This document shows positions 46,060-61,298 of a stretch of 64,000 nt of DNA, piece by piece. The number at the start of each line of letters is the position of its first letter. Positions within the stretch are counted from its first letter, which is position 1. The notes under the pieces are model-generated. The model was not told the origin of the DNA. It ran no database searches and worked only from the letters and a program-made list of their open reading frames with translations. Position numbers and translations under genes: made by a program. The DNA is from Candidatus Bathyarchaeota archaeon (lineage in GTDB: Archaea > Thermoproteota > Bathyarchaeia > Bathyarchaeales > SOJC01): positions 1-64,000 of the forward strand of contig JAOZHR010000002.1 of NCBI GenBank assembly GCA_026014805.1. The letters run 5' to 3'.

Positions 46060-46456
46060 CTTTACTCTATTTTGCACGCGCATGAGTGTTGAACGTTGAT
46101 TGATATGTCCCATGCGTTATTCTATAATGCTTTCGTCTTGAAGATATGAATCAGTGATATTCATAATTCAGACTCAGAATCTAACTCCTGGCGCTTAAGT
46201 TGATTTAAGCCTTATCCAGAATGCGAACACGAACAGTAGTATCAGGTTAAATCCTTTGGTATCCTATTTCCACTCTTATACAATATATCCTCTTTAGGAC
46301 GTACCTACTCCGCGTAGGCAGTTCATTTGAGATAAAGAACCATAACATTTCACTGTTGGATTCCAAATCTGAATCTAGAATATTGATAATCAGTATTTTG
46401 ATTTCATAATTGTTAAAGTGTGCCAATGTTGAACAGATACTTGTTGTGTGAGAAGA
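46060..46456. other. Gene-free 0.4-kb intergenic region
   Basis: AT-rich, no frame with a usable start above 30 codons. Begins with ACGCGC at 46070. I see no other structure. Confidence 0.35.
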
Positions 46457-47251
46457 ATGGAATCCTCAACGCTGGCGTATCAGCAGGTTTCACAGCATCT
46501 TGGGCTGTCGGAATATGAGGCAAGGGTTTACGTGTCGCTGGTCACGGGAGGCATTTCTGAGGCTAGAAAACTGAGCATGAGGTGCGGAGTGCCTAGAACG
46601 AAGGTTTACGCCACATTGAAGAAGTTGATGGAAAGCGGTTTGGTTTCTGAACTGCCAGGGAAGCCTCGGAAGTTTGCTCCTACATCTCCTGCAGAAGCTT
46701 TTGAGCAGATTTTGTTGCATTTCAAAGAGAGGACTTCTAATAGTGTAATTTCGCTGATGGAATCCGACAAGGTTGTTTCATTGCTTGAAAAGACCTTTAG
46801 GAAAACGCACTTGACTAACGGACCTCAAAAGGAAGAAGTGTGGATTATTCAGGATCGGTCCGAGATTCTTGGAAAAATTAGAGAAACGTTGTCTGGAGCC
46901 AAGAAAAGCGTTGCTGTCGTAACAACGGAAAACGGCTTCGTATGGTTTTATAAGACTTTTAACAAATTGCTTGACAAGCTGGTTGAGAACGGTGTGAAGG
47001 TTCAGATAGGAACTCCAATTAACTCGCATAATGGTAATCTAGCACGGGAACTCAACTACATATACAAGGTCAAGCACGTCGATGTTGATTCGCCTTTGCT
47101 GTACTTGGGTGTTGATGACCAAACCTTCTTTTTGGCAAGGTTGAACCTAAACAATGTCAACTTGGAGTCTGAAAAGAATCTAGGAGTTTACTGTAACAGT
47201 TCGAATCTACGTGATTTGTTTTCTCTCCTACTTCCCAGATCAGCGAAGTAA
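46457..47251 (+). CDS. TrmB-family transcriptional regulator
   Basis: About 264 aa. The N-terminal winged helix (LGLSEYEARVYVSLVTGGIS ... CGVPRTKVYATLKKLMESGL) is the TrmB sugar-type HTH; the C-terminal part (EVWIIQDRSEILGKIRETLS ... VAVVTTENG ... LLDKLVENGVKVQIGTPIN) is the PLD-like effector domain. A GTG at 46448 is an alternative start. It flanks the chemotaxis region and may control part of it, but no target site is evident. Confidence 0.8.
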   Translation: MESSTLAYQQVSQHLGLSEYEARVYVSLVTGGISEARKLSMRCGVPRTKVYATLKKLMESGLVSELPGKPRKFAPTSPAEAFEQILLHFKERTSNSVISLMESDKVVSLLEKTFRKTHLTNGPQKEEVWIIQDRSEILGKIRETLSGAKKSVAVVTTENGFVWFYKTFNKLLDKLVENGVKVQIGTPINSHNGNLARELNYIYKVKHVDVDSPLLYLGVDDQTFFLARLNLNNVNLESEKNLGVYCNSSNLRDLFSLLLPRSAK

Positions 47252-47332
47252 TTTTTGTTTGATGGCGTCGTTGAAAACGTGTAGGCTTTATCGACGGAGT
47301 TATTGAGTTGATGGTGCACGTGTTTTCGCAAG

Positions 47333-47701
47333 CTATTTCTGGCGTTCGTCTTCTAGTTTGCGTACTCTTGTTTTGATCCATTCGGTCACTTTTCCCTCTG
47401 TCATCTTCTCGGCTTTTTTCTGTTCTTCGAGTTTTTCTTTTATGAGTGCTAACAGCTTTGGGTGTTTGACGGGTTTTATGATGTATGCGTCTGCTCCCAG
47501 ATTTAGGGCTTTGACGGCGTTTTCCAGTGAGGGGTATCCTGTGATCATGATTTTGACCACTTTGAGCAGGGTATTGTGTATTGTTGTGAGTAGTTCGGTG
47601 CCTTCCATATCTGGGAGTTTGATTTCTATCAGCGCCAGGTTGAAGAACTTGGCTTTTGACTTTTGTATTGCTTCTCGTCCGTTTCTCGCGGTGTCACCCA
47701 A
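47333..47701 (-). pseudogene. N-terminally truncated receiver-domain protein with Glu at the phospho-acceptor site
   Basis: 122 aa starting at TTG inside the receiver fold: the first beta strand with the acidic pair is absent. The remainder is good: NLALIEIKLPDMEGTELL (Asp replaced by Glu), MITGYPS (conserved Thr), YIIKPVKHP (conserved Lys), then a charged helical tail. Its 5' end runs into the divergent composite promoter at 47693-47739, whose GTCAC box lies within the first codons. It is either a truncated relic or a phosphorylation-independent receiver translated from a weak start. Confidence 0.55.
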
Positions 47702-47739
47702 CTTCGTTGTTCATGGTTACAGTAGCCTTAGATAATGCC
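47693..47739 (+). promoter_or_regulatory. Composite che-regulon promoter, copy a
   Basis: GTCAC at 47693-47697, 17 bp, then GGTTACAG-TAG-CCTTAGATAATGCC ending at 47739. It drives the AbrB-like/KaiC/V4R operon starting at 47771. It differs from the other copies by one base in the first box (ACAG for ACAC). Confidence 0.75.
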
Positions 47740-47770
47740 GAAGCTTAGTCTATGACAAGGAAACACGCTG

Positions 47771-47962
47771 TTGTTGGATGTGCTGAACGTGGCTGGGATA
47801 AAGCTGAAGCCTATTCGTCTTCGGAAGAGTTTGTATCTGCTGATTCCTATGGAGATTGCTAAGCTGATCGGCGTGACGGATAAAACAAAATTCGTTTTAA
47901 CTCTTAAACATGGCGACGAATACGTCTTAATGTACCATAAAGCCGAGGCCTCGCCTAGCTAA
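47771..47962 (+). CDS. Small AbrB/SpoVT-like protein, first gene of KaiC/V4R operon
   Basis: About 60-63 aa. KPIRLRKSLYLLIPMEIAKL is a swapped-hairpin pattern, followed by IGVTDKTKFVLTL and a basic/acidic tail. TTG start at 47771 (TTG 47774 and GTG 47780 are alternatives). It begins 32 bp after the shared promoter motif. A DNA-binding or oligomerising regulator of the operon is the simplest reading. The next gene starts 22 bp downstream. Confidence 0.55.
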   Translation: MLDVLNVAGIKLKPIRLRKSLYLLIPMEIAKLIGVTDKTKFVLTLKHGDEYVLMYHKAEASPS

Positions 47963-47984
47963 TGTTGGCGGAGGCGGATCTAAG

Positions 47985-48551
47985 GTGGCGATTGAGGAAA
48001 AACTTGCAAAAGTCTCTTCTGGGTCGATTGTGATTTTGGAGTTTCCAGCTGGAGAAAATCAGGTTAAGTTGGCAGCGGATTTTTTGAAGAGTAAGCAGAA
48101 AACTGGCAGTTGTGGCGTGTACGTGTCTTCCAACAGACCTGCAAACAATCTGATTGAGAAAATTAAGGATTATGGATATGATCTGAAGAAACCACTTGAG
48201 GAAGGTCGTGTGTGGGTGGTGGATCTGGTCTCAAAGAATGTTGGCGACGCGGAAGTGAATGGCGTTATCTATGTTTCCTCGGCTTCGGAGCTCTCGGCGA
48301 CGCAGATGGCGATTGAAAAGGCTATAAACCGGATTAAAGGTAGAGATGGCCCAGGTTGGCTTCTCCTCGATTCTATAGCGACCTTGCTGGTTTTTAACAG
48401 TCCTGACTCGCTTCTTGAGTTCATGCACTTTCTTCTTGGCAGACTTAGGGTTTTGGGGTTTGACGGTGTCATCTTTACTGTGCGTGAGGGAATAGATGCG
48501 AAGGTGATCGCGACCATCAGGCAGTTCTGTGATGGAATTATAACATTGTAA
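47985..48551 (+). CDS. Degenerate RecA/KaiC-like protein without Walker A
   Basis: A 188-aa RecA-fold protein. The P-loop position reads SIVILEFPAGENQVKLAADF, with no G-K-T/S, so ATP binding is unlikely. The Walker B strand survives as GWLLLDSIATLLVF, and the final strand is GVIFTVREG. It resembles non-catalytic KaiC/ArlH-type proteins. Paired with the active KaiC-like gene next downstream (16-bp gap), it may form a regulatory hetero-oligomer. Confidence 0.6.
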   Translation: MAIEEKLAKVSSGSIVILEFPAGENQVKLAADFLKSKQKTGSCGVYVSSNRPANNLIEKIKDYGYDLKKPLEEGRVWVVDLVSKNVGDAEVNGVIYVSSASELSATQMAIEKAINRIKGRDGPGWLLLDSIATLLVFNSPDSLLEFMHFLLGRLRVLGFDGVIFTVREGIDAKVIATIRQFCDGIITL

Positions 48552-48567
48552 ATTTGGGCGTGGAAAG

Positions 48568-49278
48568 ATGGTTAATAATAGAGAAAAGGTTTCGACCGGA
48601 ATTTTAAGTTTGGACAAGATACTTAGAGGTGGTTTCAATAGGGGTGACACGATTCTTGTGGCAGGTCAACCTGGTGCTGGAAAAACAACGCTTGGGTTGC
48701 AGTTTTTGTACAGTGGTGCTACGAAATATGGGGAAAACGGCGTCTATGTTACGTTTGTTGAAAGCGTTAAGAAGTTGAAGAGGGATGCGTTGAAGTTCGG
48801 ATGGGACTTTGATAAATTAATGAAGAAAGTTAATTTTCTGGATCTTATGCAGGCCACGGGAGAAAAAGGCTTGGAAGCGAACTTTGCGATTATGATGACT
48901 GAAATTGAGTTGGCGGGTGCAAAGCGTATTGTCATTGACAGTTTGTCGGCGATGACAATTTACATCGAGAATAAGGCAGAGGCTCGAACCTTCGTTGGAA
49001 TGGTTAATAGGCTTCTTGAGAATGCTGGTTGCACGTCTCTTTTGCTTGTTGAGGTGCCTTGGGGGAAAAGTGATATTGGCTCTGGCTTTGAAGAGTTCTT
49101 GGGAGACGGTTTGATAGTGTTAGAATCTACAATCGATGGTTTTAGAGTTAGGAGAATGCTTTTTGTTCCTAAGATGCGTGGCGTTAACCATGATTTGAGT
49201 TGCTATGACTTCTTCATATCTACTGATGGCATCGCTGTGTCGCCGATACCAACATCTAGAAAGAGAAAATGGCTTTGA
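48568..49278 (+). CDS. KaiC-domain ATPase
   Basis: A 236-aa single KaiC domain. Walker A AGQPGAGKTTLGLQFLY (about residues 35-50), Walker B KRIVIDSLSAM (near 130) and the catalytic Glu in YVTFVESVKKL are intact. Single-domain archaeal KaiC homologues act as ATP-driven signalling switches; ArlH of the archaellum motor is one. Here it sits between a degenerate partner and a V4R sensor under the chemotaxis-type promoter, so a sensory output role is inferred. Confidence 0.82.
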   Translation: MVNNREKVSTGILSLDKILRGGFNRGDTILVAGQPGAGKTTLGLQFLYSGATKYGENGVYVTFVESVKKLKRDALKFGWDFDKLMKKVNFLDLMQATGEKGLEANFAIMMTEIELAGAKRIVIDSLSAMTIYIENKAEARTFVGMVNRLLENAGCTSLLLVEVPWGKSDIGSGFEEFLGDGLIVLESTIDGFRVRRMLFVPKMRGVNHDLSCYDFFISTDGIAVSPIPTSRKRKWL

Positions 49279-49290
49279 GGAGAAGTTGGA

Positions 49291-49827
49291 ATGTCTGGAA
49301 AAAATAGTGTGATGTTGGATGCTGAGAAGGGTGAGGCAAGGGCACGTTTGGGAGAGGACTATCGGCGTATGGTGCTCATAGCGTCTGAGGCTTTCGTTAA
49401 GATGATGGAATCGTTGAATGCTTTCGGTTCTGCTGGGTTCACCATGTTTTATATGATGGGACAAGAAAAGGGACGCTATGATGTTTTGAAGGAAATAGAG
49501 ACATTGCGGCAGCATGAAATTTCTTTTACCAAGCGTCAGTTGTTGGATAACATTATTCGTCAGTTTAGGGTTACTGGTTGGGGAGTGCCTAGGGTTCAGA
49601 AGTATGATGAGAAACGGGGGGCCTTGATGATTCTGGTGGAGAATAATCCATTAGTCATTGTGTTAGAAACGCAGGAAAAATCGGAGAAGCCTGTCTGTTA
49701 TTATTTTAGGGGTTATTGGGTTGGTGTTGTTTCGGAGGTTTGGGAGAGAAAGGTAAGTTGTTCTGAGACTAAGTGTATGGGCATGGGAGACCCGTACTGC
49801 GAGTTCAAAATCACTCCTATTCAGTAA
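49291..49827 (+). CDS. V4R-domain sensor protein
   Basis: 178 aa. The C-terminal V4R (4-vinyl reductase-like) domain shows YYFRGYWVGVVSEVWERKVS, then C-x(5)-C-MGMGDPYCEFKI with three Cys, as in small-molecule- or metal-binding V4R domains. The N-terminal helices (EDYRRMVLIASEAFVKMMES) may mediate dimers. Last gene of the operon, 12 bp after KaiC. A second V4R protein is encoded near 59.7 kb. Confidence 0.75.
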   Translation: MSGKNSVMLDAEKGEARARLGEDYRRMVLIASEAFVKMMESLNAFGSAGFTMFYMMGQEKGRYDVLKEIETLRQHEISFTKRQLLDNIIRQFRVTGWGVPRVQKYDEKRGALMILVENNPLVIVLETQEKSEKPVCYYFRGYWVGVVSEVWERKVSCSETKCMGMGDPYCEFKITPIQ

Positions 49828-49887
49828 CATTCAGTTGTAGAGAGATGTCCAGCGGGCGTTCCTTGTTCTTGGATGGCTCCCGTCCAC

Positions 49888-50454
49888 TCAGTTTCTCAAT
49901 TTATCTTTGAATGTTTTTTCGAACATCTCGATTATCTCAAGTAGCTCTCTGTGATGACTCTTCTCATCTCCAACCAATGCGCGAAGAAGTGCTATAGCTC
50001 TTGGATCTTTGATTTGTCCAGCCATCTCCTCATAGGTTTCCTTTAGTCCTTGCTCGAGTTCAAGATGGCTTTTCATTGCGTGATACGTTTCTTCTACATC
50101 CGTGAGGTATATGCGCGGCTTGGTGTTTTCCGGGATGATTACATGTGAAGATATGTGCACCGATTGGTCTATCTCTCCTGTCTCAGTTAAGATTTCTTTT
50201 GTGATTCCCAATATCTTTGTGTGGCGTTCCCCTGCTGAAGATAATCGTTCAAACATTACCTTTGCATGACGATTGCTTGTTTGGTTAGCTAATAGGCCGT
50301 ATCTTTCTATTGTGTAACCTTCGATCTTGGTCCAATATTCAAGAATGTGGGAAATCTTTTCGTATTTGTCGGTGCTCGTGCTAGCGTTTCCAGAGATAAT
50401 GTTCGTAATCTCTTTCGAAGCATCTTTCTCTGTTTCAATAAGTTCTCTAGCCAT
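49888..50454 (-). CDS. Ferritin-like helical-bundle protein with CheC-derived N-terminus
   Basis: 188 aa. Residues 1-26 (ELIETEKDASKEITNIISGN) match the N-terminus of the CheC encoded at 51810 in 16 of 26 positions. The rest is a four-helix bundle of ferritin/rubrerythrin type: EGYTIERYGLLANQ, ERHTKILGITKEIL, LEQGLKETYEEMAG and GDEKSHHRELLEIIE (ExxH). Metal ligands are partly present (ExxH in the last helix). The leader DNA and promoter are also copied from cheC. A stress or redox sensor linked to chemotaxis is possible; iron storage is not supported. Confidence 0.65.
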   Translation of the reverse strand: MARELIETEKDASKEITNIISGNASTSTDKYEKISHILEYWTKIEGYTIERYGLLANQTSNRHAKVMFERLSSAGERHTKILGITKEILTETGEIDQSVHISSHVIIPENTKPRIYLTDVEETYHAMKSHLELEQGLKETYEEMAGQIKDPRAIALLRALVGDEKSHHRELLEIIEMFEKTFKDKLRN

Positions 50455-50500
50455 CTATGTTCCTTCCATTCTAGGATGTCATGATTAAGACTAAGTCGTG

Positions 50501-50548
50501 ACTTTATCTAAAGCTGGTGTAACCCTCTCAGTAACTAGGACAGTGACA
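50501..50548 (-). promoter_or_regulatory. Composite che-regulon promoter, copy b
   Basis: On the minus strand: GTCAC (50548-50544), 18 bp, then GGTTACACCAG-CTTTAGATAAAGTC (50525-50501). It drives the ferritin-like fusion, whose ATG is 46 bp downstream. This is the most diverged copy (CTTT for CCTT, and 18 bp instead of 17). Confidence 0.8.
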
Positions 50549-50825
50549 TGTTGTGAAAAATCTTTGCGTGCGATATTTTCAAAGGCCTCGATACGAAAAT
50601 CATGGCTTTCCCCCTAAGTCTAGAGAGGCGCAGGCTCTTGGGCGAAGGATAAGTGTTTTCAAGCTCCAAGAGTCACGCCTCGAATAGGAGGGAATGCCTC
50701 ATATAAAATGGAACTTCGAAGAGACGTATAAGAATTATGTCCAGCAGCATATCAGATATACATGTTATTTATATGTTATTGTTGCGCACACAGGTTTTGC
50801 TGGAGAAGAAACACGAATTCGGTTG
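50549..50825. other. Intergenic region upstream of the fusion gene
   Basis: A 53-codon plus-strand frame starts at 50694 right after AGGAGGGA and runs into the antisense of cheY (stop 50853). The peptide (HIKWNFEETYKNYVQQHIRY and on) matches nothing I know. The ribosome site makes it worth noting but not calling. Confidence 0.3.
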
Positions 50826-51191
50826 TTACGACATGTTGAATGTCTTTTTTATTAGCTCTGTTATTTTTGCGTCGTCGAATGGTTTAACGATGTAGCCGCT
50901 GATGCCTAATTTCTTGCATCGTTCGACTAGTGGTCCTTGTCCAACTGCTGAGACCACAATTATTTTGCTTTCTAAACCGTCTTTTCTCAAATTGTAAAGG
51001 ACAGTTTCACCGTCAATATCTGGTAGGACTATGTCTAGGAGAATTAGGTCTGGCTTTTCTTTTTTAGCTATCTCCATTGCCTGTTTTCCGTTTGACGATT
51101 CAATAACCGATGTTTGTCCAAGAACTGATAGTTTGTCTTTCAGAATCCTTCGCATGAAAGAAGAGTCGTCCACAATCAATACTTTTTTCAT
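50826..51191 (-). CDS. cheY: Chemotaxis response regulator CheY
   Basis: A 121-aa single receiver domain. Acidic pair VDDSSF (Asp8, Asp9), phospho-acceptor Asp53 in LILLDIVLPDIDG, the switch Ser in VVSAVGQG and Lys in YIVKPFDDAK. It receives phosphate from CheA and signals to the archaellum motor, in archaea through adaptor CheF. It lies 13 bp after cheC on the same strand, so kinase output and its phosphatase are co-transcribed. Confidence 0.92.
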   Translation of the reverse strand: MKKVLIVDDSSFMRRILKDKLSVLGQTSVIESSNGKQAMEIAKKEKPDLILLDIVLPDIDGETVLYNLRKDGLESKIIVVSAVGQGPLVERCKKLGISGYIVKPFDDAKITELIKKTFNMS

Positions 51192-51204
51192 TGTTACTCC
51201 CTTC

Positions 51205-51810
51205 TCATTCCCGATTTGCCTTTTTTATGAGCGATAGTGCACCCTTTATTCGTAGGAAGAAAAGGAACCAAACGTTCGCTTTGGCAATATCTTTTACGGC
51301 AAGTTCATTTCTGACTGCTAATACGGGACCTTCAATAGGTCGAGCCAACAGCACATCCAAGACTGCATCTCCGATTGTAGAAAACAGTTTGACATCTCCC
51401 AACTGCATCTTAATGTCCATGAAGTGTGCTATCGCTTCCAAATAGCACTCAAAAACAGTATTGCCCATTTGTAGGAGTGCTTTTTGGCCTTCTTCTGATA
51501 ACCATTTTGTTGTTCCCGTTTTCTTATTCTGCAACAAATCTGCCATTTTCAATGCACTTTCTGAGCCGAAGACTAACATAACACTTCCAACAGTCTCACC
51601 TTTTAACTTAGCAAATGTGCAAACAGCAATTCCTTCTGGAGCTTCAGCATATTCTTTTATCTTGGCGTGAGAGATTATTGTGTAGTCGGGCACAGTTAAC
51701 ATGATTTCTTGTCCAGTCTTTTCTGAGAGAAGAGTGCTGGCGTTTCCAACAGCAATGTTCGTCATCTCCTTCAGAAAGTCTTTCTCTATTTCAGTAAGTT
51801 TTTCTACCAT
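51205..51810 (-). CDS. cheC: CheY-P phosphatase CheC
   Basis: 201 aa from the ATG at 51810 (GGAAGGA site, conserved in the duplicated leader near 50454); an ATG at 51825 adds five residues. The first phosphatase signature is intact: E-x-x-N-x(22)-P in KEMTNIAVGNAST ... TVPD. The second (LLQMGNTVFECYLEAIAHFM, then V at the Pro position) is altered, Gln for Glu and Val for Pro. It dephosphorylates CheY-P and usually binds CheD. Confidence 0.88.
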   Translation of the reverse strand: MVEKLTEIEKDFLKEMTNIAVGNASTLLSEKTGQEIMLTVPDYTIISHAKIKEYAEAPEGIAVCTFAKLKGETVGSVMLVFGSESALKMADLLQNKKTGTTKWLSEEGQKALLQMGNTVFECYLEAIAHFMDIKMQLGDVKLFSTIGDAVLDVLLARPIEGPVLAVRNELAVKDIAKANVWFLFFLRIKGALSLIKKANRE

Positions 51811-51855
51811 CCATGTTCCTTCCATTTTAGGATGTCTTGATTAGAACTATGCTAT

Positions 51856-51902
51856 GGCTATATCTAAGGCTAGTGTAACCATCAACAACGGAAATGGGTG
51901 AC
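51856..51902 (-). promoter_or_regulatory. Composite che-regulon promoter, copy c
   Basis: On the minus strand: GTCAC (51902-51898), 17 bp, then GGTTACACTAG-CCTTAGATATAGCC (51880-51856). The cheC ATG lies 45 bp downstream. It drives cheC-cheY. Confidence 0.85.
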
Positions 51903-51924
51903 ACCTCTAACAAACCTTGCCACC

Positions 51925-52398
51925 TCAAATCTTTACTCTAACTGTTACGATTCCACTTGCTGTGTCAAACTCCACAGACCTGCCAACACTACCCCCCACG
52001 ACCTCTCCAGCCAGAGAGATTCCTTCTTTCCTCAGCTTCTCCTTTACAGCCAGAACGTTCTCTTCACCAGTCTTCAAGCTTTTATGTCCAAGAGTCGGAA
52101 ACATGTTTGCTCCACCGACAATCTTTCCGGTCATATTTCGTCTTTGAGAACCCAACGATTCCATTTTCCTAATCATATGATCTATAGCCAAGTCGGCAAA
52201 CTTGAATGGATTACTAGTCAGCCCATGTTCTGTGCTGTCGGGCAGCATGGCATGGGCCATTGCTCCAACTTTGAGCATGGGGTCGTAGAGCGTTACGACT
52301 ATGCAAGAGCCTACTCCAAGCGCCACTAGCCTGTTGGGCGTCTGGGTGGCTTTTACTTGAGCCGTGTCCACTACAATGTCTTCTAGGATGTTATGCAA
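51925..52398 (-). CDS. cheD: Chemoreceptor deamidase CheD
   Basis: 157 aa with the CheD catalytic set: ALGVGSCIVVTLYDP (Cys), GAMAHAMLP (His) and the Thr/Ser-bearing HGLTSNPFKF region; IVGGANMFP is the family block. CheD deamidates receptor glutamines and regulates CheC. Its start overlaps the end of the upstream receiver-CheC gene by 8 bp, consistent with coupled translation and a direct CheC-CheD partnership. Confidence 0.9.
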   Translation of the reverse strand: MHNILEDIVVDTAQVKATQTPNRLVALGVGSCIVVTLYDPMLKVGAMAHAMLPDSTEHGLTSNPFKFADLAIDHMIRKMESLGSQRRNMTGKIVGGANMFPTLGHKSLKTGEENVLAVKEKLRKEGISLAGEVVGGSVGRSVEFDTASGIVTVRVKI

Positions 52399-53389
52399 CT
52401 ACCTTTGCCCCGAGTGCTCTCAGCATTGCGTGAGCTTCCTTCAATGAGAACAGGAGGAAGAAGTATCCCATGACCTTGATTTTTGCTCTAGTGCTTAACT
52501 CCACTTGTATTATCAATGCTCGCTCAGCTTTTTGCCCAAAGGCTACGGCTACGTTGTCGAGCAAGGCCCCGACCATACCATGTGCGAACTCGGGAACATG
52601 TTCAACAAGATGCATTCCCAATGTGTGCGACAAAGCAGTTAAACAGTTTCCAGCTAGAATATTCCCAGCTTCACTCAAAGCAGATTTGTCCATCTCATCA
52701 AGCTCCTTTGTAGTTCCCGGCTCCTTTTTCAACAGCACGTTCACTAGTATGAAAGCACTTTTCTCTGGAAAAATCATCAACAATGAACCCGAAAGGTCTC
52801 CAGTTACCGGAAGATATATCCCACTGACCAACGTTTCCCTATCTCCAACCAACTTCGGAAGGTCATCTAAAGAAGTCATCGTTGCCGTTAGTAGCTTCAC
52901 CTTGACCGTTTGCCCAATCATCTTTGAAAGAGCCGTGCCTGCATGCTGCGCACCGATGTGCCCAACCTCTCTCAACGCATCTTCCTCCAATTTAGTCAAT
53001 TTCGCCGTTCGTTTTCTCTTTCCTTTTGCACGAAGGGTCTCCTCCACAGTGTCCACTAACTGTCTTTCATCAAAAGGCTTAACAATGTACCCAGCGGAAC
53101 CAAGTATGTTGCATGTCTTCATAGTCTTTGCTTGCCCTACAGCTGTAAGCATTATCACCTTTGCATTCTCATCTATGTTCATGATCCTTTTGAGCACTTC
53201 AGTTCCGTCTAAGCCAGGCACTATTATGTCCAAAAGTACCACGTCCGGCTTTTCTGTTTCATATTTCCTCAATGCTTCCTCGCCGTTCTCTGCTTCAATC
53301 ACCTCTCGGAAACCCCGACCATTCAAAGCATTCCGTACAATCCGCCTCGTAAACGCCGAATCATCAACGACCAATATTTTCGTACCCAT
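52391..53389 (-). CDS. CheY-like receiver fused to a CheC-type phosphatase domain
   Basis: 332 aa from the ATG at 53389, preceded by AAGGAGGTGA; an upstream ATG at 53425 is less likely. Residues 1-120 are a receiver with VVDDSAF, Asp in VVLLDIIVPGLDG and YIVKPFDE. Residues 130-332 are a CheC/FliY-like module. Its first signature is lost (REVGHIGAQHAG, His for Asn); the second is intact (LSEAGNILAGNCLTALSH ... HVPE, E-x-x-N-x(22)-P). It may dephosphorylate itself or CheY-P and act as a phosphate sink. Followed by cheD with an 8-bp overlap. Confidence 0.85.
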   Translation of the reverse strand: MGTKILVVDDSAFTRRIVRNALNGRGFREVIEAENGEEALRKYETEKPDVVLLDIIVPGLDGTEVLKRIMNIDENAKVIMLTAVGQAKTMKTCNILGSAGYIVKPFDERQLVDTVEETLRAKGKRKRTAKLTKLEEDALREVGHIGAQHAGTALSKMIGQTVKVKLLTATMTSLDDLPKLVGDRETLVSGIYLPVTGDLSGSLLMIFPEKSAFILVNVLLKKEPGTTKELDEMDKSALSEAGNILAGNCLTALSHTLGMHLVEHVPEFAHGMVGALLDNVAVAFGQKAERALIIQVELSTRAKIKVMGYFFLLFSLKEAHAMLRALGAKVVA

Positions 53390-53442
53390 TTTTTCACCTC
53401 CTTGTTTTCCATCGCCTGTTTTCATGTCAAGAATTAAGCTGC

Positions 53443-53489
53443 GGCTTTATCTAAGGCTGGTGTAACCGCTTCTCTGCTCGAAGAGTGAC
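53443..53489 (-). promoter_or_regulatory. Composite che-regulon promoter, copy d
   Basis: On the minus strand: GTCAC (53489-53485), 17 bp, then GGTTACACCAG-CCTTAGATAAAGCC (53467-53443). The start codon of the receiver-CheC fusion (53389) is 53 bp downstream. It lies between cheA and this gene, giving the receiver-CheC/cheD pair its own promoter. Confidence 0.85.
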
Positions 53490-53503
53490 ATGCGCATACC
53501 TTC

Positions 53504-55138
53504 TCAGCTAACATTAGCTGCATACCTCTGTTCCTCAACCAACGAATCAAACAAACTATTCACATCCAAAATCAAAGCAGGCTTCCCATCCCCCAAAATC
53601 GTAAACCCGGCAAAAACCCTACTCTGCCTCACAAACCTGTCCAAAGGCTTAACAATAATATCTTGCTTATCCAAGAGAGCATCAACACCTAAACTGAGAA
53701 ACTCGTTCTCACGATTCACAAGCACTATCAACACACTCTTCTCTCCCTCATGAGGAAAACCAAAAAAATCCGACAACCTCAACAACGGAACATTCCCCTC
53801 AGACAAAACAGCTACCTCACGACCAAGCATCCTCTTAACATCTTTAGCCTTCACCCTGACCGACCTCACAACACTGGTCAGAGGAACAGCATAGATTTCC
53901 TCTCCCACCTTCGTCAACAAAGCTGAGATAATGGCCAACGTAAGCGGAAACCTCAACGTAACCTTCATGCCCTTTCCAGCTTGAGTGCCCACTTGAACCG
54001 TTCCGCCAAGAGACTCAACCGTTCTCTTAACCACGTCAAGCCCAACACCCCTACCAGAAACCTCAGTAACCTTCTCAGCTGCACTAAACCTGTTATCAAA
54101 CAACAATGCCACAGTTTCTTCATAACCTAAGCGTGCTGCTTCCTTTCCGCTTAGTATCCCCCTATCCACTGCAACCCTCTTCACCTTCTCCACACTGACC
54201 CCTCTACCGTCATCCTCCACTTCAATGAGGGCATAATCCTTCTCTCTTCTAGCGATCAACCTGACTGTTCCAACCGCTGGTTTTCCCAATCTCTCTCTTT
54301 CGTGTGGCACCTCTATGCCATGATTCACCGCGTTCCTCAGCAAATGAACAAGCGGCTCTCCCAACTTATCCACAATCTTTCTGTCAAGCTCAATCTCACC
54401 GCCCTCAAGCACTAAAATAACCTGTTTCTGCTCTCTTCTCGCCAAATCCCGAACCATTCTCGGAAACCTACGAAATATCTGCCCAACAGGAACCAAACGA
54501 GCCTGCATAACATTGAACTGCAAGTCAGAAACCATCCTGCCCAAAGCATCTAAAGCGCCGGGCATATCTCCAAACTTTTCTGAGGCATACAGCTGATCCA
54601 ACAACATCTTGTTAACCAACAACTCCTCTACGAGACCCGCCAGCGTATCCAATGTCTCAACGTCAACCTTTATCTCACGAATCTTCTCAATAGACGAAGG
54701 CTTCTCAGCTAATCTTACACCCTCAGGAGCTCCTGAACCCAGTTTTTCACCTGGAGCAGACAAAAGACGATTCAGCTTCGACAAGGATCCAGCTACATCC
54801 GCTTCATCATTACCACCTGAAATCCTTCTGAGAGACAGCTCCAAATTATCAAAACACTCAAAGAAAACTTCAACCATCTCAGACGTCAGCTTTGCGTCCT
54901 TCTTTCTCACCTTATCCAGAACGTCTTCAATCGCATGACACAGCCCTGCAAGCTTATTATAGTTCATAGTGGCTGCCATGCCCTTCAAACTGTGAGCCGC
55001 CCTAAACATCTCATCAATAGACTTCAAGTCAGCCGGGTTCTTCTCCAACTTCAATAAGGACTCATTCAACAACTGCAGGTTCTCTTTCGCTTCGCTCAAG
55101 AACATATCTTTATACTTCGACACGTCCATAGTTGGCAC
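53504..55138 (-). CDS. cheA: Chemotaxis histidine kinase CheA
   Basis: A 544-aa kinase. The P1 Hpt domain has the phospho-His in FRAAHSLKGMAATM (His49). P3 dimerisation (IKVDVETLDTLAGLVEELLV) starts near 158; the P4 kinase has LRNAVNHGIEVPHERER, VEDDGRGV and GRGVGLDVVKRTVESLGG; the P5 CheW-like domain fills the last 140 residues. The P2 response-regulator docking domain seems absent: only about 40 residues of Gly/Ser-rich linker separate P1 from P3. It starts 9 bp after cheB. Confidence 0.92.
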   Translation of the reverse strand: MPTMDVSKYKDMFLSEAKENLQLLNESLLKLEKNPADLKSIDEMFRAAHSLKGMAATMNYNKLAGLCHAIEDVLDKVRKKDAKLTSEMVEVFFECFDNLELSLRRISGGNDEADVAGSLSKLNRLLSAPGEKLGSGAPEGVRLAEKPSSIEKIREIKVDVETLDTLAGLVEELLVNKMLLDQLYASEKFGDMPGALDALGRMVSDLQFNVMQARLVPVGQIFRRFPRMVRDLARREQKQVILVLEGGEIELDRKIVDKLGEPLVHLLRNAVNHGIEVPHERERLGKPAVGTVRLIARREKDYALIEVEDDGRGVSVEKVKRVAVDRGILSGKEAARLGYEETVALLFDNRFSAAEKVTEVSGRGVGLDVVKRTVESLGGTVQVGTQAGKGMKVTLRFPLTLAIISALLTKVGEEIYAVPLTSVVRSVRVKAKDVKRMLGREVAVLSEGNVPLLRLSDFFGFPHEGEKSVLIVLVNRENEFLSLGVDALLDKQDIIVKPLDRFVRQSRVFAGFTILGDGKPALILDVNSLFDSLVEEQRYAANVS

Positions 55139-55147
55139 TCACACCTT

Positions 55148-56191
55148 CTACAGAAGTTGAATTATCCCCTCGCTAATCTTAAACACGGGAAGAACATGAT
55201 CTGCGTCTCCCTTCTCGATGACTTCCCTAGGCATACCGAAGATCAGAGATGTAGCCTCATCTTGCGCAATCGTCCTGCCGTTTCTTCGTTTAATAGCCCT
55301 CATACCCTCTGCTCCGTCCCTGCCCATGCCAGTCAAAATGATTCCAACAGCGTTTTCACCATAGACTTCTGCAACCGACTTCATGGTCACATCAACAGAA
55401 GGCCGCAGACTGTGAACAAGAGGACCCCTGTTTAAGCGGATAACGCCCTTCGTTACGCCATCTGTCATTGTTTTCTTCACGGTCATGTGAAAATCTCCAG
55501 GGGCAACGAACGCTTTTCCAAGCTCTATCAGGTCTCCTTCTTCGGCTTCTTTCACCTCGATTTCAGACATTCGATTCAACCGTTCTGCTAGGGATTTAGT
55601 GAATTTCGCAGGCATGTGTTGAACGATAAGGATTGCAGCTGGAAAGTTTGAAGGAAGCTCTGACAGAATCAGCTCCAAAACAGATGGTCCACCAGTGGAT
55701 GATCCAATGACAAACACTTTCTCCCTAACGACGAGACCAGGCGCCAAAAACTGCTTGACTCGTTCTCTGGCAAGTATAGATTTAATCTTCCGAATGTTAA
55801 CCGTTGAAGCTCTTTTTATCTTCTCTGTAAGCTTGTCTTTAACCTTTCCAATGTCAACGGAGACAGCGCCAGACGGTTTAAGAACAAAATCCACGGCACC
55901 AGCCTCCAGACACTCTATGGTTGCAGCTGTCCCCTCCTGGGTATAGGCGCTTAACATTATCACGAGAGTAGGAAATTCCTTCATGATACGCTTAAGGGTG
56001 CGCAACCCGCCCAAGCCAGGCATAAGATAATCCAAAGTGATCACATCCGGTCTTAAAGTCGACAATTTTTCCACGGCATCGTTGCCATCTTTTGCAACTC
56101 CAACAACCTCGATTTCAGGGTCAGAATTCAACATATCAGCAACTAACGTTCTCATGAAGAATGAATCATCAACTACCAGCACCTTTACCAT
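55148..56191 (-). CDS. cheB: Receptor methylesterase CheB
   Basis: 347 aa: receiver (VVDDSFFMRTL; Asp in VITLDYLMPGLGG; K in FVLKPSGAV), a linker, and the methylesterase domain with the catalytic triad in GSSTGGPSVLEL (Ser), VQHMPAKFTKSLAERLN (His) and GMGRDGAEGM (Asp). It demethylates receptor glutamyl esters when phosphorylated by CheA. No CheR is found in the window, so the methyltransferase must lie elsewhere. Confidence 0.92.
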   Translation of the reverse strand: MVKVLVVDDSFFMRTLVADMLNSDPEIEVVGVAKDGNDAVEKLSTLRPDVITLDYLMPGLGGLRTLKRIMKEFPTLVIMLSAYTQEGTAATIECLEAGAVDFVLKPSGAVSVDIGKVKDKLTEKIKRASTVNIRKIKSILARERVKQFLAPGLVVREKVFVIGSSTGGPSVLELILSELPSNFPAAILIVQHMPAKFTKSLAERLNRMSEIEVKEAEEGDLIELGKAFVAPGDFHMTVKKTMTDGVTKGVIRLNRGPLVHSLRPSVDVTMKSVAEVYGENAVGIILTGMGRDGAEGMRAIKRRNGRTIAQDEATSLIFGMPREVIEKGDADHVLPVFKISEGIIQLL

Positions 56192-56344
56192 TTCTGTTAT
56201 CCCCCGAAAGCCTGTTGCTCATCTCGTAACCCCAACAAAAAAAGGGAAAATGTTGTCGATTGAAACCGCCCATTGAGAAAATATTTCTCACTTACCCTTT
56301 GGCTTTTCAACAGGTTTTTCCTTTGCAGCTCTGCGGGTTGCACG

Positions 56345-57115
56345 CTATAGAGGTTTACGTTCTGTTGTTTCTGCTACTTTCTTCTCTGGTTTCAACTGCT
56401 CTTCTTTTGGCAACGTTTCCTTAAGCGCTTGCCACTCTGTTGTTTCCTTTTCTTTTGGCAGCTTTTCCTCTGGCATTTCTTGTTTTGGTGTTAGTATTTC
56501 TATTTCCATCGATTTCTCTGTTTCTTCAGCCAGCTTTTCTTCAGGAGCCTTTTCTTTCTTCCTTGGCTTGACTCTGCGATATTCTCTTGCTGATGTCCTC
56601 GCTAACTCGATGAGTTCTTTTTCAGAGAGAACCTTTTCCAGGTCAAGCAGTATTATTAACTTCTCTCCTAAGGTTCCTATGCCCTTTACGTAGTCAATGC
56701 CTATTTTTTTGGTTATCATCTCTGGAGGCAGCTTGATGTCTCCTTTGGGCAACCTCAGTACGTCGGTTACTTCGTCTACGAGCAACCCAAAGGTGCCATC
56801 GTCAATCATTGCTATCACAATGTGCTTACCCGTGTGTTCTTCGTCTTCTCTTTTCAGCAGGAACCTCTTTTCGAGGTCTATCACACCGACGATTTTGCTC
56901 CTAAGATTGATGACGCCCTTCAAAAAATCTGGAGAGTTAGGGATCATCGTTATCGTTCCTGTTTTGACGATTTCCCTAACATCTAGGATCCCGACGCCGT
57001 ATTCTTCGTTGCCGAGGGTGAAGACCACGAACTGAGTTGTGTCTCTTTCTTCGATTGCTGGTTCTTCCACGATTGCCGCTACTTCTTGCTTCGTCCTTGC
57101 TACCGTCCTCGACAT
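56345..57115 (-). CDS. cheW: Coupling protein CheW with charged C-terminal tail
   Basis: 256 aa. Residues 25-165 are the CheW SH3-like double barrel (FTLGNEEYGVGILDVREIVK, IPNSPDFLKGVINLRSKIVG, DEVTDVLRLP). The remaining 90 residues are a Glu/Lys/Pro-rich, probably disordered tail, unusual for CheW. The annotated stop is TAG; the same frame continues for 18 codons of identical Lys/Glu/Pro/Arg composition to a TGA at 56288. It begins 1 bp after the mcp gene, bridging receptor and CheA. Confidence 0.88.
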   Translation of the reverse strand: MSRTVARTKQEVAAIVEEPAIEERDTTQFVVFTLGNEEYGVGILDVREIVKTGTITMIPNSPDFLKGVINLRSKIVGVIDLEKRFLLKREDEEHTGKHIVIAMIDDGTFGLLVDEVTDVLRLPKGDIKLPPEMITKKIGIDYVKGIGTLGEKLIILLDLEKVLSEKELIELARTSAREYRRVKPRKKEKAPEEKLAEETEKSMEIEILTPKQEMPEEKLPKEKETTEWQALKETLPKEEQLKPEKKVAETTERKPL

Positions 57116-57116
57116 T

Positions 57117-59426
57117 CTAGTCAGCCTCTATCTTTCTCTTCTTCGCCATTTTCCTAGAGCTGACCCTTTCCGCCACCCTTGCCTCTCCAGCCTCTTGGAC
57201 TACCTTAAACAGTTGCAGTGATCCGCTGAGTTCCTTTGCCATAGCACCCAATTCTTGGGAAGACGAAGTCATCTGTTGCATAGCAGCGGTTTGCTGTTGC
57301 ATGGAGGCAGACATTTTTTGTGCACTTGCACTGTTCTGTTCGGATATAGACGCTACTTCGTCTATTGCCTTTGTTACCTGCTGGGACCCAGCTGATTGTT
57401 GTTGACTGGCGGCGCTTATCTCTTGAGCTTTAGCCGTTATCTCTTGTGCTCCAGCGGAGATCTGGTCTAGGATAGACAGAGCGGTATCAACGATTTTGAG
57501 GCTTTCACCAACTTGTTCTGTTCCCTGTGTCATGCCAGACACTGCGCTACCTGACGCCTTTCTTACACCACCGACTAGTCCCTCGATTTCGCCAGTCGCC
57601 GTCTTTGACCTTTCAGCCAACTTCCTAACTTCATCCGCAACAACTGCGAATCCTCTGCCCGCTTCTCCTGCCCGAGCCGCTTCTATTGCCGCGTTTAAAG
57701 CTAGCAGATTGGTTTGATCCGCGATATCGTTGATCGTTCCCACGATGGCTGCGACTTCTTGTGCGCTCTCATCCACTTTCTGAACTGTATCTGTGTTAGC
57801 TCTCACAATTTCGTCGATTGCCTTCAGTCTCGTAGCCGCTTCTTGTCCTGCTTCAGTGCCCTTTGCAGCAAGCTTAGCCGCTTCCGCTGTTGTGTTTGCC
57901 GCTGATCGAGCGTTGGTTGCACCTTGCTGGATGCTGGTGGATAGATCTGCGATGGCCTTTGTGGTTTCTTCTAGCCGTTTGGATTGTGTCTGGGCTCCCT
58001 CAGCTACTTGTCCAACGATGTCTGCTACTTGGCGCAGAGCAGCGTTGACCTGCGTTGAAGAAGAAGCCACTTGGTCGGCTCCCACTGTGACTCTCTCGCC
58101 CACAACCCTAGCCTTTCCGATGAGTGCACCTATATCGCCCACCGTTTGGTTAATGGTTTCTCCTATAGCTTTGAAATCGCCCGCTGCCTTCTCCAGAGCC
58201 ACCTTTTGAGTTAGGTCGCCCCTAGACATCGCAACGAGAACCCTTTGAACCTCTCTAATTGGAACAATTATCGAGTCGATCAAGCTGTTCAGTGTGTCTA
58301 CAAGGTCTTTCCATGAACCCGTAACACCTGGCACAGATGCCCTCTCCGACAAGTTTCCTTCTTCTCCTGCTACTCTCGCAACTCTGCTAACTTCGCCAGC
58401 CAGCCTGTTTAGGCCGTCTAGAGTCTTGTTGATGGTGTCAGCCATCACCTTGAAGTCACCAGCAACCTCCAGCTCAAACTTCTCCGTCAATTTTCCTTCA
58501 GATATGGCGGTGAGAATTCTGCTAACCTCAAGCGTCGGCTTAGCAACTGACTCAATCAAATAGTTCAGCGTGTCCACAAGGTCCTTCCAAGATCCAGAAA
58601 CACCTTCAACCGTTGCTCTCTCTGAAAGATTACCCTCAGTGCCAGCCACCTTTGCTACCCTGCTAACCTCAGATGCCAACCTGTTCAAGTCATCAACCAT
58701 ACCATTGATTGCATCGGCCAGAGCCTTTACTTCCCCGGCTGCGGGTACCTCCACCTTCTGTGTCAGATCACCCTTTGATATGGCCACAGTGACCTTAGCG
58801 ATTTCTCTCACTTGTACAGTAAGTGCGTCCACCAATCCGTTCAATGTGTCAACAACGTCCTTCCAAGAACCACCGACACCTGGAACCTCCGCGTGCACTC
58901 CGAGTTTTCCTTCAACACCCACTTCCTTGGCGACTCTTGACACTTCTGACGCCAATGTGTTGAGGGAATCCACCATACTGTTGACTACACCAGCTAAGAC
59001 CTCGAAGTCTCCGGCTACTTTTATTGTCACTTTCTGTGTCAAGTCACCTTTCGCAATGGCGGTGACTATTCTGCCAACTTCTTGCACTGGTCCAACGACA
59101 GACTCAAGCAAAGTGTTTAGCGTGTCCACGATGTCTTTCCAACTGCCTTTGACACCTTCCACCGTAGCTCTCTCACTGAGTTTGCCTTCAACTCCAGCAA
59201 CTTTGGCAACACGAGAAACTTCGTCAGCTAATCCACCGATCAATTCTACCATGCCATTGTACGAATCTGCTAGCTCACCGAAGATGTCCTCTTGCTCCTT
59301 TCGTATCTGCACTGTTAAGTCGCCTTTCCTGACGGCTTCTAAGCCTTCCAATAGCCTCTGCAACTGCCTCGTTGAATACTCATCCATCGAACTTGTTTCC
59401 ACCATACTTGTTTTCGACTTAGACAC
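57117..59426 (-). CDS. Soluble methyl-accepting chemotaxis protein with tandem poly-HAMP repeats
   Basis: 769 aa without any membrane helix, so a cytoplasmic receptor. From about residue 65 to 433 there are four tandem repeats of about 92 residues, each with a SRVAKVAG-x-EG block, a GSWKD-hV-DTLN block and a KGDLTQKV block, a HAMP-array pattern. The C-terminal signalling hairpin has the tip [19 protein letters not shown] and methylation helices on each side. No separate ligand-binding domain is visible, so input may come through the HAMP array or a partner such as a V4R protein. First gene of mcp-cheW-cheB-cheA. Confidence 0.9.
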
Positions 59427-59479
59427 TTTTCTAACATCTCCATTTTTTGAAATTTTACCGATGTCAAAGACTATGCTAT

Positions 59480-59526
59480 GGCTATATCTAAGGCTGGTGT
59501 AACCACTAGTATATCCTACCAGTGAC
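59480..59526 (-). promoter_or_regulatory. Composite che-regulon promoter, copy e
   Basis: On the minus strand: GTCAC (59526-59522), 17 bp, then GGTTACACCAG-CCTTAGATATAGCC (59504-59480). The mcp start is 54 bp downstream. It presumably drives mcp-cheW and probably cheB-cheA, since no second copy lies before cheB. Confidence 0.85.
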
Positions 59527-59678
59527 TATTCAGAATTCATATCCAAAAATCAATAGCCAAAATACACATCCTCAACGAAATCGCCACCTAAAAAATCAAG
59601 CTGAATCAGTTTCGACTCCGACAACGATTCAGAAGTCTGCAGAATCGTTAATTCTGCATGTTGAACACATGGTTAGCA

Positions 59679-60164
59679 ATGAGCGCACTTTCAATAGATA
59701 GCAAAGCCATCCGTACGAAAAAGGACAGTTTAGGCGAGGGTGTCCTCTTCAGTTTTGAAACCTTAAGCGAGATCGAATCAGCCTTAGAAGAAATCTTTTC
59801 ACCCTCAGCAGCCTCCGTGATCCTACGTACAGCGGCTAAGAGAAGCGGTGAAAAAACATGCAAGAAAATCATGAAAAACGCTGGAACCAAAGAGAAAGCG
59901 CTAAATCATCTTGTTAAACTAGAAAACGATGAAAACTGGGGAAAATCATCCTTCCAGAACATCGACTTTGCGAAAAGACCTGGGAAAGTCATAATCATCG
60001 ATTCATTTGAAACAGTAGCCCGCAAAACCACTCAGCCATGTTGCCACCTCTTCAGAGGTTTCCTGGAAGGCTTCCTCTCAGAGCTGTGCGGAAAACCAAT
60101 CGAAATTACTGAGGAAAAATGCGCTGGAAGAGGAGACGAACACTGCAAGTTCATATTTGAATAG
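59679..60164 (+). CDS. V4R-like domain protein
   Basis: About 161 aa (ATG 59658 is an alternative start). N-terminal VLFSFETLSEIESALEEI, a helical middle and a C-terminal V4R core: CCHLFRGFLEGFLSELCGKP, then EEKCAGRGDEHCKFIFE. The Cys pattern (C-A-G-x-G-D-x-x-C) matches the other V4R protein. It lies between the mcp and filament gene promoters. None of the composite promoters faces it, so its expression is separately driven or from a weak site I cannot see. Possible sensory partner for the soluble receptor. Confidence 0.65.
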   Translation: MSALSIDSKAIRTKKDSLGEGVLFSFETLSEIESALEEIFSPSAASVILRTAAKRSGEKTCKKIMKNAGTKEKALNHLVKLENDENWGKSSFQNIDFAKRPGKVIIIDSFETVARKTTQPCCHLFRGFLEGFLSELCGKPIEITEEKCAGRGDEHCKFIFE

Positions 60165-60254
60165 CACAAACTTGCATTTGTCTGTTATAGTTTAACATCA
60201 AGACGAGCTTAGTTGACTACAAACTTCCATTCTCAAGTCAAATACGCAGAAACT

Positions 60255-60301
60255 GTCACTGACCCTCGTAACCAATGGTTACACTAGCCTTAGATAATGC
60301 C
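60255..60301 (+). promoter_or_regulatory. Composite che-regulon promoter, copy f
   Basis: GTCAC at 60255-60259, 17 bp, then GGTTACACTAG-CCTTAGATAATGCC (60277-60301). The pilin/archaellin ATG follows 35 bp downstream. This copy links the filament genes with the chemotaxis units. Confidence 0.85.
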
Positions 60302-60335
60302 AAGGCATAATCAAAAGGTAGAGTGTGAACAAAAC

Positions 60336-60776
60336 ATGAAGATATGGAAGAAACTGTTGAGGGCAAAGAGAGCGTTTTCTCCTGTAATTGCATCTTTGAT
60401 TCTAATGTTGCTCGCAGTTGCCGCTGGCGTCGTCGTCTACTCGTACACCATGGGATGGCTCGGAGGAGCCACAACGACTGCTGGAGGCACACAAGGAAAA
60501 CTGCAATTTGACTCCATCTATGCAGATGCAACGGCAGATGAAATATACATATACATCAGAAACACTGGCGGCAAGGACATCTTGCTTTCAAAGACATATA
60601 TTGACGGAACCGACACAGCGAACGAAACCGCGATTGCTGCTGCAGGTGTTCCACTGACTGTGCAATCTGTGGCGTACCTAAATGTCACGAAGACCATGAC
60701 CACAGGTTATTTCTACGAAGTGAAAGTGACCTGTAAAGACGGTACTACAATCTCTCAATCCGTAGAAGCCAAATAA
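60336..60776 (+). CDS. Archaellin/type IV pilin-like protein 1
   Basis: 147 aa from the ATG at 60336. The N-terminus has a class III signal: basic KKLLRAKRAF followed by the hydrophobic SPVIASLILMLLAVAAGVVV helix, the core of archaellins and archaeal pilins. The rest is a small beta domain (LQFDSIYADATADEIYIYIR; YFYEVKVTCKDGT). After cleavage by a prepilin/preflagellin peptidase it would assemble into the filament core. It lies directly behind promoter copy f. Confidence 0.8.
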   Translation: MKIWKKLLRAKRAFSPVIASLILMLLAVAAGVVVYSYTMGWLGGATTTAGGTQGKLQFDSIYADATADEIYIYIRNTGGKDILLSKTYIDGTDTANETAIAAAGVPLTVQSVAYLNVTKTMTTGYFYEVKVTCKDGTTISQSVEAK

Positions 60777-60836
60777 GAATCCCTTTCTCTTTCCCCTCTA
60801 TTCGCAGCTTCTTGAACGAGAGGTAGGCTGAAGAAG

Positions 60837-61298
60837 ATGTTTCGCTCCCTTTTTCATGACAAGCGAGGAGTAAGCGAAGTTGTTGCAAGTTTAATGATGA
60901 TCCTAATAGTTACAATCGCCGGCACAGCACTGTACGCTTACAGTGTGAACTCACTTGGTTCATCAGGAAGCTCCTTTCAACTGGAGACAGCCAAGAAGGA
61001 AGAACTAGCTCGAGAACGATTATCAATAACCACAGTATGGTGGAACGTCTCAACTGACTACATGAACATAACAGTTCTAAACTACGGAAAAATCGAACTT
61101 GTCATCGACGCCGTGTACATAGACGGCACACAAGTTTCCGCCTCAGCCTACACAGACGGAAGAGGGGAAACCACAGCAAAGGGAAGCCTTGTTTCTGTCA
61201 AATTCACTTCACCAGTCCCGATCACAGTAGATCAAACCTACGAGATAACAGCTGTCAGCGAGCGGGGAAGCAGAGATGTGGTGTACTGGGAAGCTTAG
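60837..61298 (+). CDS. Archaellin/type IV pilin-like protein 2
   Basis: 153 aa with class III signal peptide FHDKRGVSEVVASLMMILIV (KRG before SEVV, the classical cleavage context). A beta domain follows (TTVWWNVSTDYMNITVLNYG, an archaellin-like strand pair). It is 60 bp after pilin 1. Its 3' end overlaps the next gene by 23 bp. A minor filament subunit or cap is possible. Confidence 0.78.
   Translation: MFRSLFHDKRGVSEVVASLMMILIVTIAGTALYAYSVNSLGSSGSSFQLETAKKEELARERLSITTVWWNVSTDYMNITVLNYGKIELVIDAVYIDGTQVSASAYTDGRGETTAKGSLVSVKFTSPVPITVDQTYEITAVSERGSRDVVYWEA

Follow-up and report, generated by a model that had tools for sequence, protein, structure and literature searches.

A composite two-box element, GTCAC-N17/18-GGTTACAC-YAGCCTTAGATA-WWGCC, occurs six times within 12.6 kb of the window (the whole 64,000-nucleotide stretch of DNA analysed) and is best read as a new promoter of a motility regulon in an archaeon. 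It is genuine, and in this genome it is found only at one cluster of genes for chemotaxis, KaiC-like, V4R, ferritin-like and filament proteins, and these gene groups are probably switched on together by one DNA-binding activator, to judge from their upstream regions. An earlier note on this DNA had proposed a shared promoter and a single regulon, and this proposal is well supported, as the copies stand only before units of one functional cluster. Activators with known sites are scarce for archaea, and how chemotaxis and archaellum genes are controlled is understood in no more than a handful of species; an element this well defined, with six copies and a fixed geometry, provides ready bait for a new activator.

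Occurrence of the element and the genes it precedes

Direct reading of the sites recovered all six copies described in the earlier note, each in its place and on its strand, and the spacer it had reported is 17 bp in five of the six and 18 bp in copy 2. The copies and the genes they serve are the following.

47693..47757, + strand: copy 1, serving a small ORF, two KaiC-like genes and a V4R gene (predicted start 47757); its parts, on the same + strand, are GTCAC at 47693-47697, GGTTACAG at 47715-47722 and the TATA box CTTAGATA at 47727-47734
50482..50547, - strand: copy 2 (18-bp spacer), serving the ferritin-like gene 49888-50454 (predicted start 50482)
51838..51902, - strand: copy 3, serving CheC-like 51205-51825 and CheY 50826-51191 (predicted start 51838)
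53425..53489, - strand: copy 4, serving receiver-CheC 52391-53425 and CheD 51925-52398 (predicted start 53425)
59462..59526, - strand: copy 5, serving MCP, CheW, CheB and CheA, 59426 down to 53504 (predicted start 59462)
60255..60319, + strand: copy 6, serving the filament operon (predicted start 60319)

The gene content of the cluster and its edge is listed below, with the source of the annotation where it comes from a domain or family collection.

46448..47251, + strand: TrmB-family regulator at the cluster edge (Pfam PF01978)
47333..47701, - strand: receiver-domain relic, truncated at its 5' end
47985-48551 and 48568-49278, + strand: two KaiC-like proteins (Pfam)
49291-49827, + strand: V4R protein (Pfam)
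49888..50454, - strand: ferritin/rubrerythrin-like protein (Pfam), its first ~28 codons CheC-like by DNA alignment
50826..53425, - strand: CheY, CheC-like protein, CheD and receiver-CheC fusion (Pfam)
53504..59426, - strand: CheA, CheB, CheW and a soluble multi-HAMP MCP
60336..63126, + strand: two archaellin/pilin-like proteins and a 616-aa ArlF-like protein (NCBIfam)

With transcription units inferred from gene order and strand, copies lie upstream of six of an apparent seven units and all point at genes; the second V4R gene (59658-60164) is the only gene inside the cluster without a preceding copy. The operon behind copy 6 carries the archaellin/pilin-like and ArlF-like genes, followed past the window end by an ArlI-like ATPase gene and an ArlJ-like gene. 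That the copies point at genes was correctly seen in the earlier note, but its distance of 32-54 bp to the gene start is only approximate because of three cases. ATG 60336 is the most likely start of the filament gene (the longer frame opens at 60297, within the element); receiver-CheC may start at ATG 53425, on the predicted start site itself, or at an internal ATG at 53389 that sits behind a Shine-Dalgarno-like GGAGGTG; and copy 1 faces the small ORF (about 47771-47962) ahead of the KaiC genes. This ORF is unannotated, looks AbrB-like by eye and has no Pfam match.

Five of the six copies fit GTCACN{15,20}GGTTACAC exactly, a pattern that gave no match in 100 shuffles of the window, and the sixth (47693) has GGTTACAG in place of GGTTACAC. 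Across the 1.79-Mb genome, GTCACN{16,19}GGTTACA has exactly six matches, which are the six copies, where chance would give about 0.76 matches to the two-box pattern genome-wide and 0.005 in the 12.6-kb stretch. These counts already refute chance similarity, and the same holds for the other form of this explanation, an insertion-sequence remnant, which is rejected since spacers and flanks differ between copies; no point was found in favour of either, and both can be set aside with near certainty. The 20-base core GGTTACACYAGCCTTAGATA has six matches at 0-1 mismatch genome-wide, all in the cluster; the next-best match, at 3 mismatches, lies on contig C25 before a deacetylase-like gene and has no GTCAC box, while the reversed core has no match in the genome and the pattern without its YAG letters yielded background matches only. 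The weight matrix of the block scored the true copies at 35-42 bits, the best other sites at 16 and, when reversed, up to 19. Weight-matrix scans of 863 kb of this genome turned up no site with just the upstream boxes and none with just the BRE/TATA block; the element is one unit, confined to this locus. Random scatter, which the earlier note had named as evidence against its reading, is thus not what the genome holds: the copies are found only upstream of cluster units, and none was found at the three other pilus-type ATPase loci.

The scan of related genomes proposed in the earlier note found no clustered copies, only isolated single matches, in 60 relatives and in a phylum-wide sample of 398 genomes. 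The element is known from one genome. The 19 che loci of relatives that were compared share no upstream word or spaced word pair clearly above shuffles. Two groups of candidates were rejected: matches at 2 mismatches in three genomes (G024, G033 and G039) are near-identical copies of one stretch, coding-like and away from che genes, and the f5 matches (L019, L020) are single and lie ahead of a dehydrogenase-like gene. Among viral contigs the strict core gave three single matches, the two-box scan being too loose, and a plasmid collection gave no match. CheB is present in 26 of the 163 genomes of the order but in no further listed genome of this genus or this family; within the class, identity to the closest CheB proteins is about 50%, and the receiver-CheC protein, used as a query against genome contigs, retrieved distant bacterial receivers only.

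The element also heads the unit that encodes the genome's only MCP and only CheB. No CheR methyltransferase was detected genome-wide in an assembly that is 96.6% complete, leaving CheB and CheD present without a detectable CheR. The sole MCP (57117-59426) contains a series of HAMP domains, lacks an obvious membrane segment and looks like a cytosolic receptor. No ArlH was seen in the filament operon (60336-65828, L068), and the KaiC-like genes under copy 1 (47985-49278), which belong to the ATPase superfamily of ArlH, might supply its role.

Promoter anatomy and mode of control

Information per column was computed over the six copies with the TATA centre set at -26. GTCAC forms five invariant columns at -64..-60 relative to the predicted start and is followed by the spacer, in which no column is conserved, and by a nearly unbroken block that reads GGTTACAC-Y-AGCCTTAGATA-WW-GCC-NNN-GC-W-TA-R-T and then CA and G. 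Within this block GGTTACAC occupies -42..-35, a non-canonical BRE about -35..-30 and the TATA box CTTAGATA -30..-23. The earlier note had described weak conservation toward the start; conservation does extend that way, but it is stronger than was thought, being nearly invariant over -42..-8. Archaeal transcription starts are usually pyrimidine-purine, and C/A is found at the predicted -1/+1 in five of the six copies. This agrees with the suggestion that CTTAGATA is TATA-like: counting 26 bp from the centre of the box leads to CA in these five. GTCAC and GTTAC both match GTYAC and form a direct repeat 23 bp apart, and it is plausible that they are two half-sites of one activator.

Because an EM motif search of upstream regions reached no TATA consensus, tRNA promoters were taken for comparison. 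The tRNA upstream regions of the same genome mostly carry A-rich BREs with TTTAAA or CTTAAATA boxes, whereas the element's BRE lacks an A-rich run and its CTTAGATA box has G where the tRNA promoters have A. CYAGC with CTTAGATA is thus a weak-looking core promoter, and by this organism's standard, judged against about 20 tRNA upstream regions only, the core promoter looks weak.

An activator working on this apparently weak core promoter is the best explanation of the element and is considered rather probable. GTCAC (-64..-60) and GGTTACAC (-42..-35) would together form an upstream activating site, and the protein bound there would sit directly against the BRE and recruit TFB/TBP to the core promoter. 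The outcome would be joint expression of the receptor, CheW/B/A, CheC/D/Y, the KaiC-V4R proteins, the ferritin-like protein and the filament operon. In favour of an activator are the confinement of the element to cluster promoters, the invariant boxes, the unconserved spacer, the TATA/start geometry, the weak look of the BRE/TATA beside tRNA promoters, the parallel with EarA and the receiver-TrmB matches described below; against it are the single genome, the relatedness of three of the six copies and the homologous che loci that have no comparable element.

A stretch as nearly invariant as -20..-8 is not usual where an activator acts from upstream only, and could be a sign of a repressor or a special TFB. 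An operator spanning about -42 to -8 across the core promoter, with repression relieved once motility is called for, would account for conservation that runs through and past the TATA box as far as -8, a frequent place of repressor binding. Such an operator is unlikely: GTCAC is invariant and sits two turns upstream, at -64, in the position of activator sites, and the BRE/TATA has the weak look of activator-dependent promoters. Nor is it probable that a dedicated TFB reads the invariant BRE/TATA/-20 block in the manner of an alternative sigma factor. The genome does have two TFB genes and the -35..-18 region is invariant, but no core-only copy was found in the 863 kb scanned, from which it follows that the core is never at work on its own, and GTCAC at -64 is not a sequence that a TFB would recognise.

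History of the copies

In a DNA alignment of the duplicated stretches 49888-50547 (ferritin-like) and 51205-51902 (CheC-like), copies 2 and 3 are alike for about 190 bp, beginning ahead of GTCAC and reaching about 28 codons into the genes. By this likeness, the ferritin-like gene carries the promoter and 5' end of a CheC-like gene. Copy 2 is the most diverged of the six. Copies 1 and 3 are identical at 12 of 16 spacer bases, and copy 1 overlies the 5' end of the truncated receiver gene. The six copies are therefore not six independent events, copies 2/3 and 1/3 being related by duplication, and the regulon grew partly by promoter copying, in which a CheC-type promoter and about 28 codons were placed on the ferritin-like gene. 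This shows how a gene, here one for a ferritin-like protein, can be drawn into a motility regulon by copying its neighbour's promoter and gene start.

The same stretches of about 190 bp and of spacer identity would be expected if all copies were recent duplicates of one promoter, alike by descent and served by no shared regulator. This is quite improbable, as the spacers and upstream flanks of copies 3, 4, 5 and 6 are alike at about chance level, yet their blocks are identical at 19-20 of 20 and at 5 of 5 positions. Copying thus accounts for part of the likeness, and both blocks appear to have been kept by selection, as seen in a comparison of copies within one genome and not between species.

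Known systems and a candidate activator

Several archaeal activators are known from sites in a similar position. EarA activates arl (fla) promoters of Methanococcus and Thermococcales from sites just upstream of a weak BRE, where it is thought to recruit TFB; its motif, A(C/G)(C/G)TACA(T/C), lies 9-11 bp upstream of the BRE, in as many as three adjoining copies, and only before the first arl gene (PMC5512572, PMC10665913). The predicted arrangement here resembles it in having activator-type sites upstream of a weak-looking BRE at archaellum genes, but has two boxes 23 bp apart that abut the BRE, and is found also before che, KaiC and ferritin-like genes. Of the 8 positions of the EarA motif, GGTTACAC agrees at 6, though it abuts the BRE; GTCAC does not match the motif. 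CsmR of Haloferax volcanii, a regulator compared to Lrp/AsnC that overlaps with its KaiC-like partner CirA, has one semi-palindromic motif, TATCA(N4)TGATA, at che and archaellum units beside the BRE/TATA; deletion of csmR raises transcript levels, and an activator recruiting TFB/TBP has been proposed (PMC13286277). One motif before che and arl units is likewise found here, but the motif is another, TATCA(N4)TGATA being absent from all six elements as read, and the host belongs to a different phylum. The ara-box/XylR system of Sulfolobus and TFB-RF1 of Pyrococcus also place an activator element beside a weak BRE, with other motifs and with sugar or transporter targets (PMC5512572, PMC7264815, PMC5937170). 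As motif and two-box geometry differ, the element is filed under neither EarA nor CsmR, and the earlier statement that no described archaeal regulon has this signature holds in the literature searched.

The most likely class for the activator is a TrmB-type protein. The TrmB family comprises mainly regulators of sugar genes with a palindromic motif of the TATCAC-N5-GTGATA type, which is not seen in the elements. A member of the family lies at the cluster edge. This gene (46448-47251) adjoins the element's target genes, and the receiver relic (47333-47701) sits between it and copy 1. Both match a 412-residue receiver-TrmB fusion protein in a relative (G058), the receiver fragment at 53% over residues 58-150 and the TrmB protein at 42% over residues 139-406, and another relative (G098) has a receiver-TrmB gene beside its che cluster. 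On account of these fusion matches, the adjoining broken receiver and the che linkage in G098, the adjacent gene is the leading candidate and the first choice for the activator, albeit a tentative one. Against it, neither of its two closest homologues has che genes as neighbours. A second TrmB subgroup shows linkage to che or arl in G047, in G120 and at two places in G098, its loci beside che or filament operons being L070, L071, L073 and L158, and has a member in this genome at the start of contig C26 (L153:308-1231). Since two subgroups exist, the window's TrmB protein is not taken to be the one that is linked to che throughout the relatives. In G098 the gene order is filament operon, convergent TrmB gene, che cluster, and the end of contig C2 may adjoin the start of C26, which would give a similar order here.

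In archaea, DNA-binding response regulators are reportedly rare (PMC5847659), so the receiver-TrmB lead deserves attention. The relic has lost its N-terminal part, and LIDI, which likely holds the phospho-acceptor of the receiver, reads LIEI. The TrmB gene and the broken receiver (46448-47701) thus correspond to the two parts of a receiver-TrmB fusion in relatives (L135; L073:7218-8507), an uncommon type of archaeal response regulator. It is conceivable, if doubtful, that a receiver-TrmB protein phosphorylated by CheA once ran the whole cluster, and that the receiver was then cut off and its phospho-site lost, leaving TrmB as a free activator. If so, relatives with an intact fusion would couple chemotactic signalling directly to motility gene expression.
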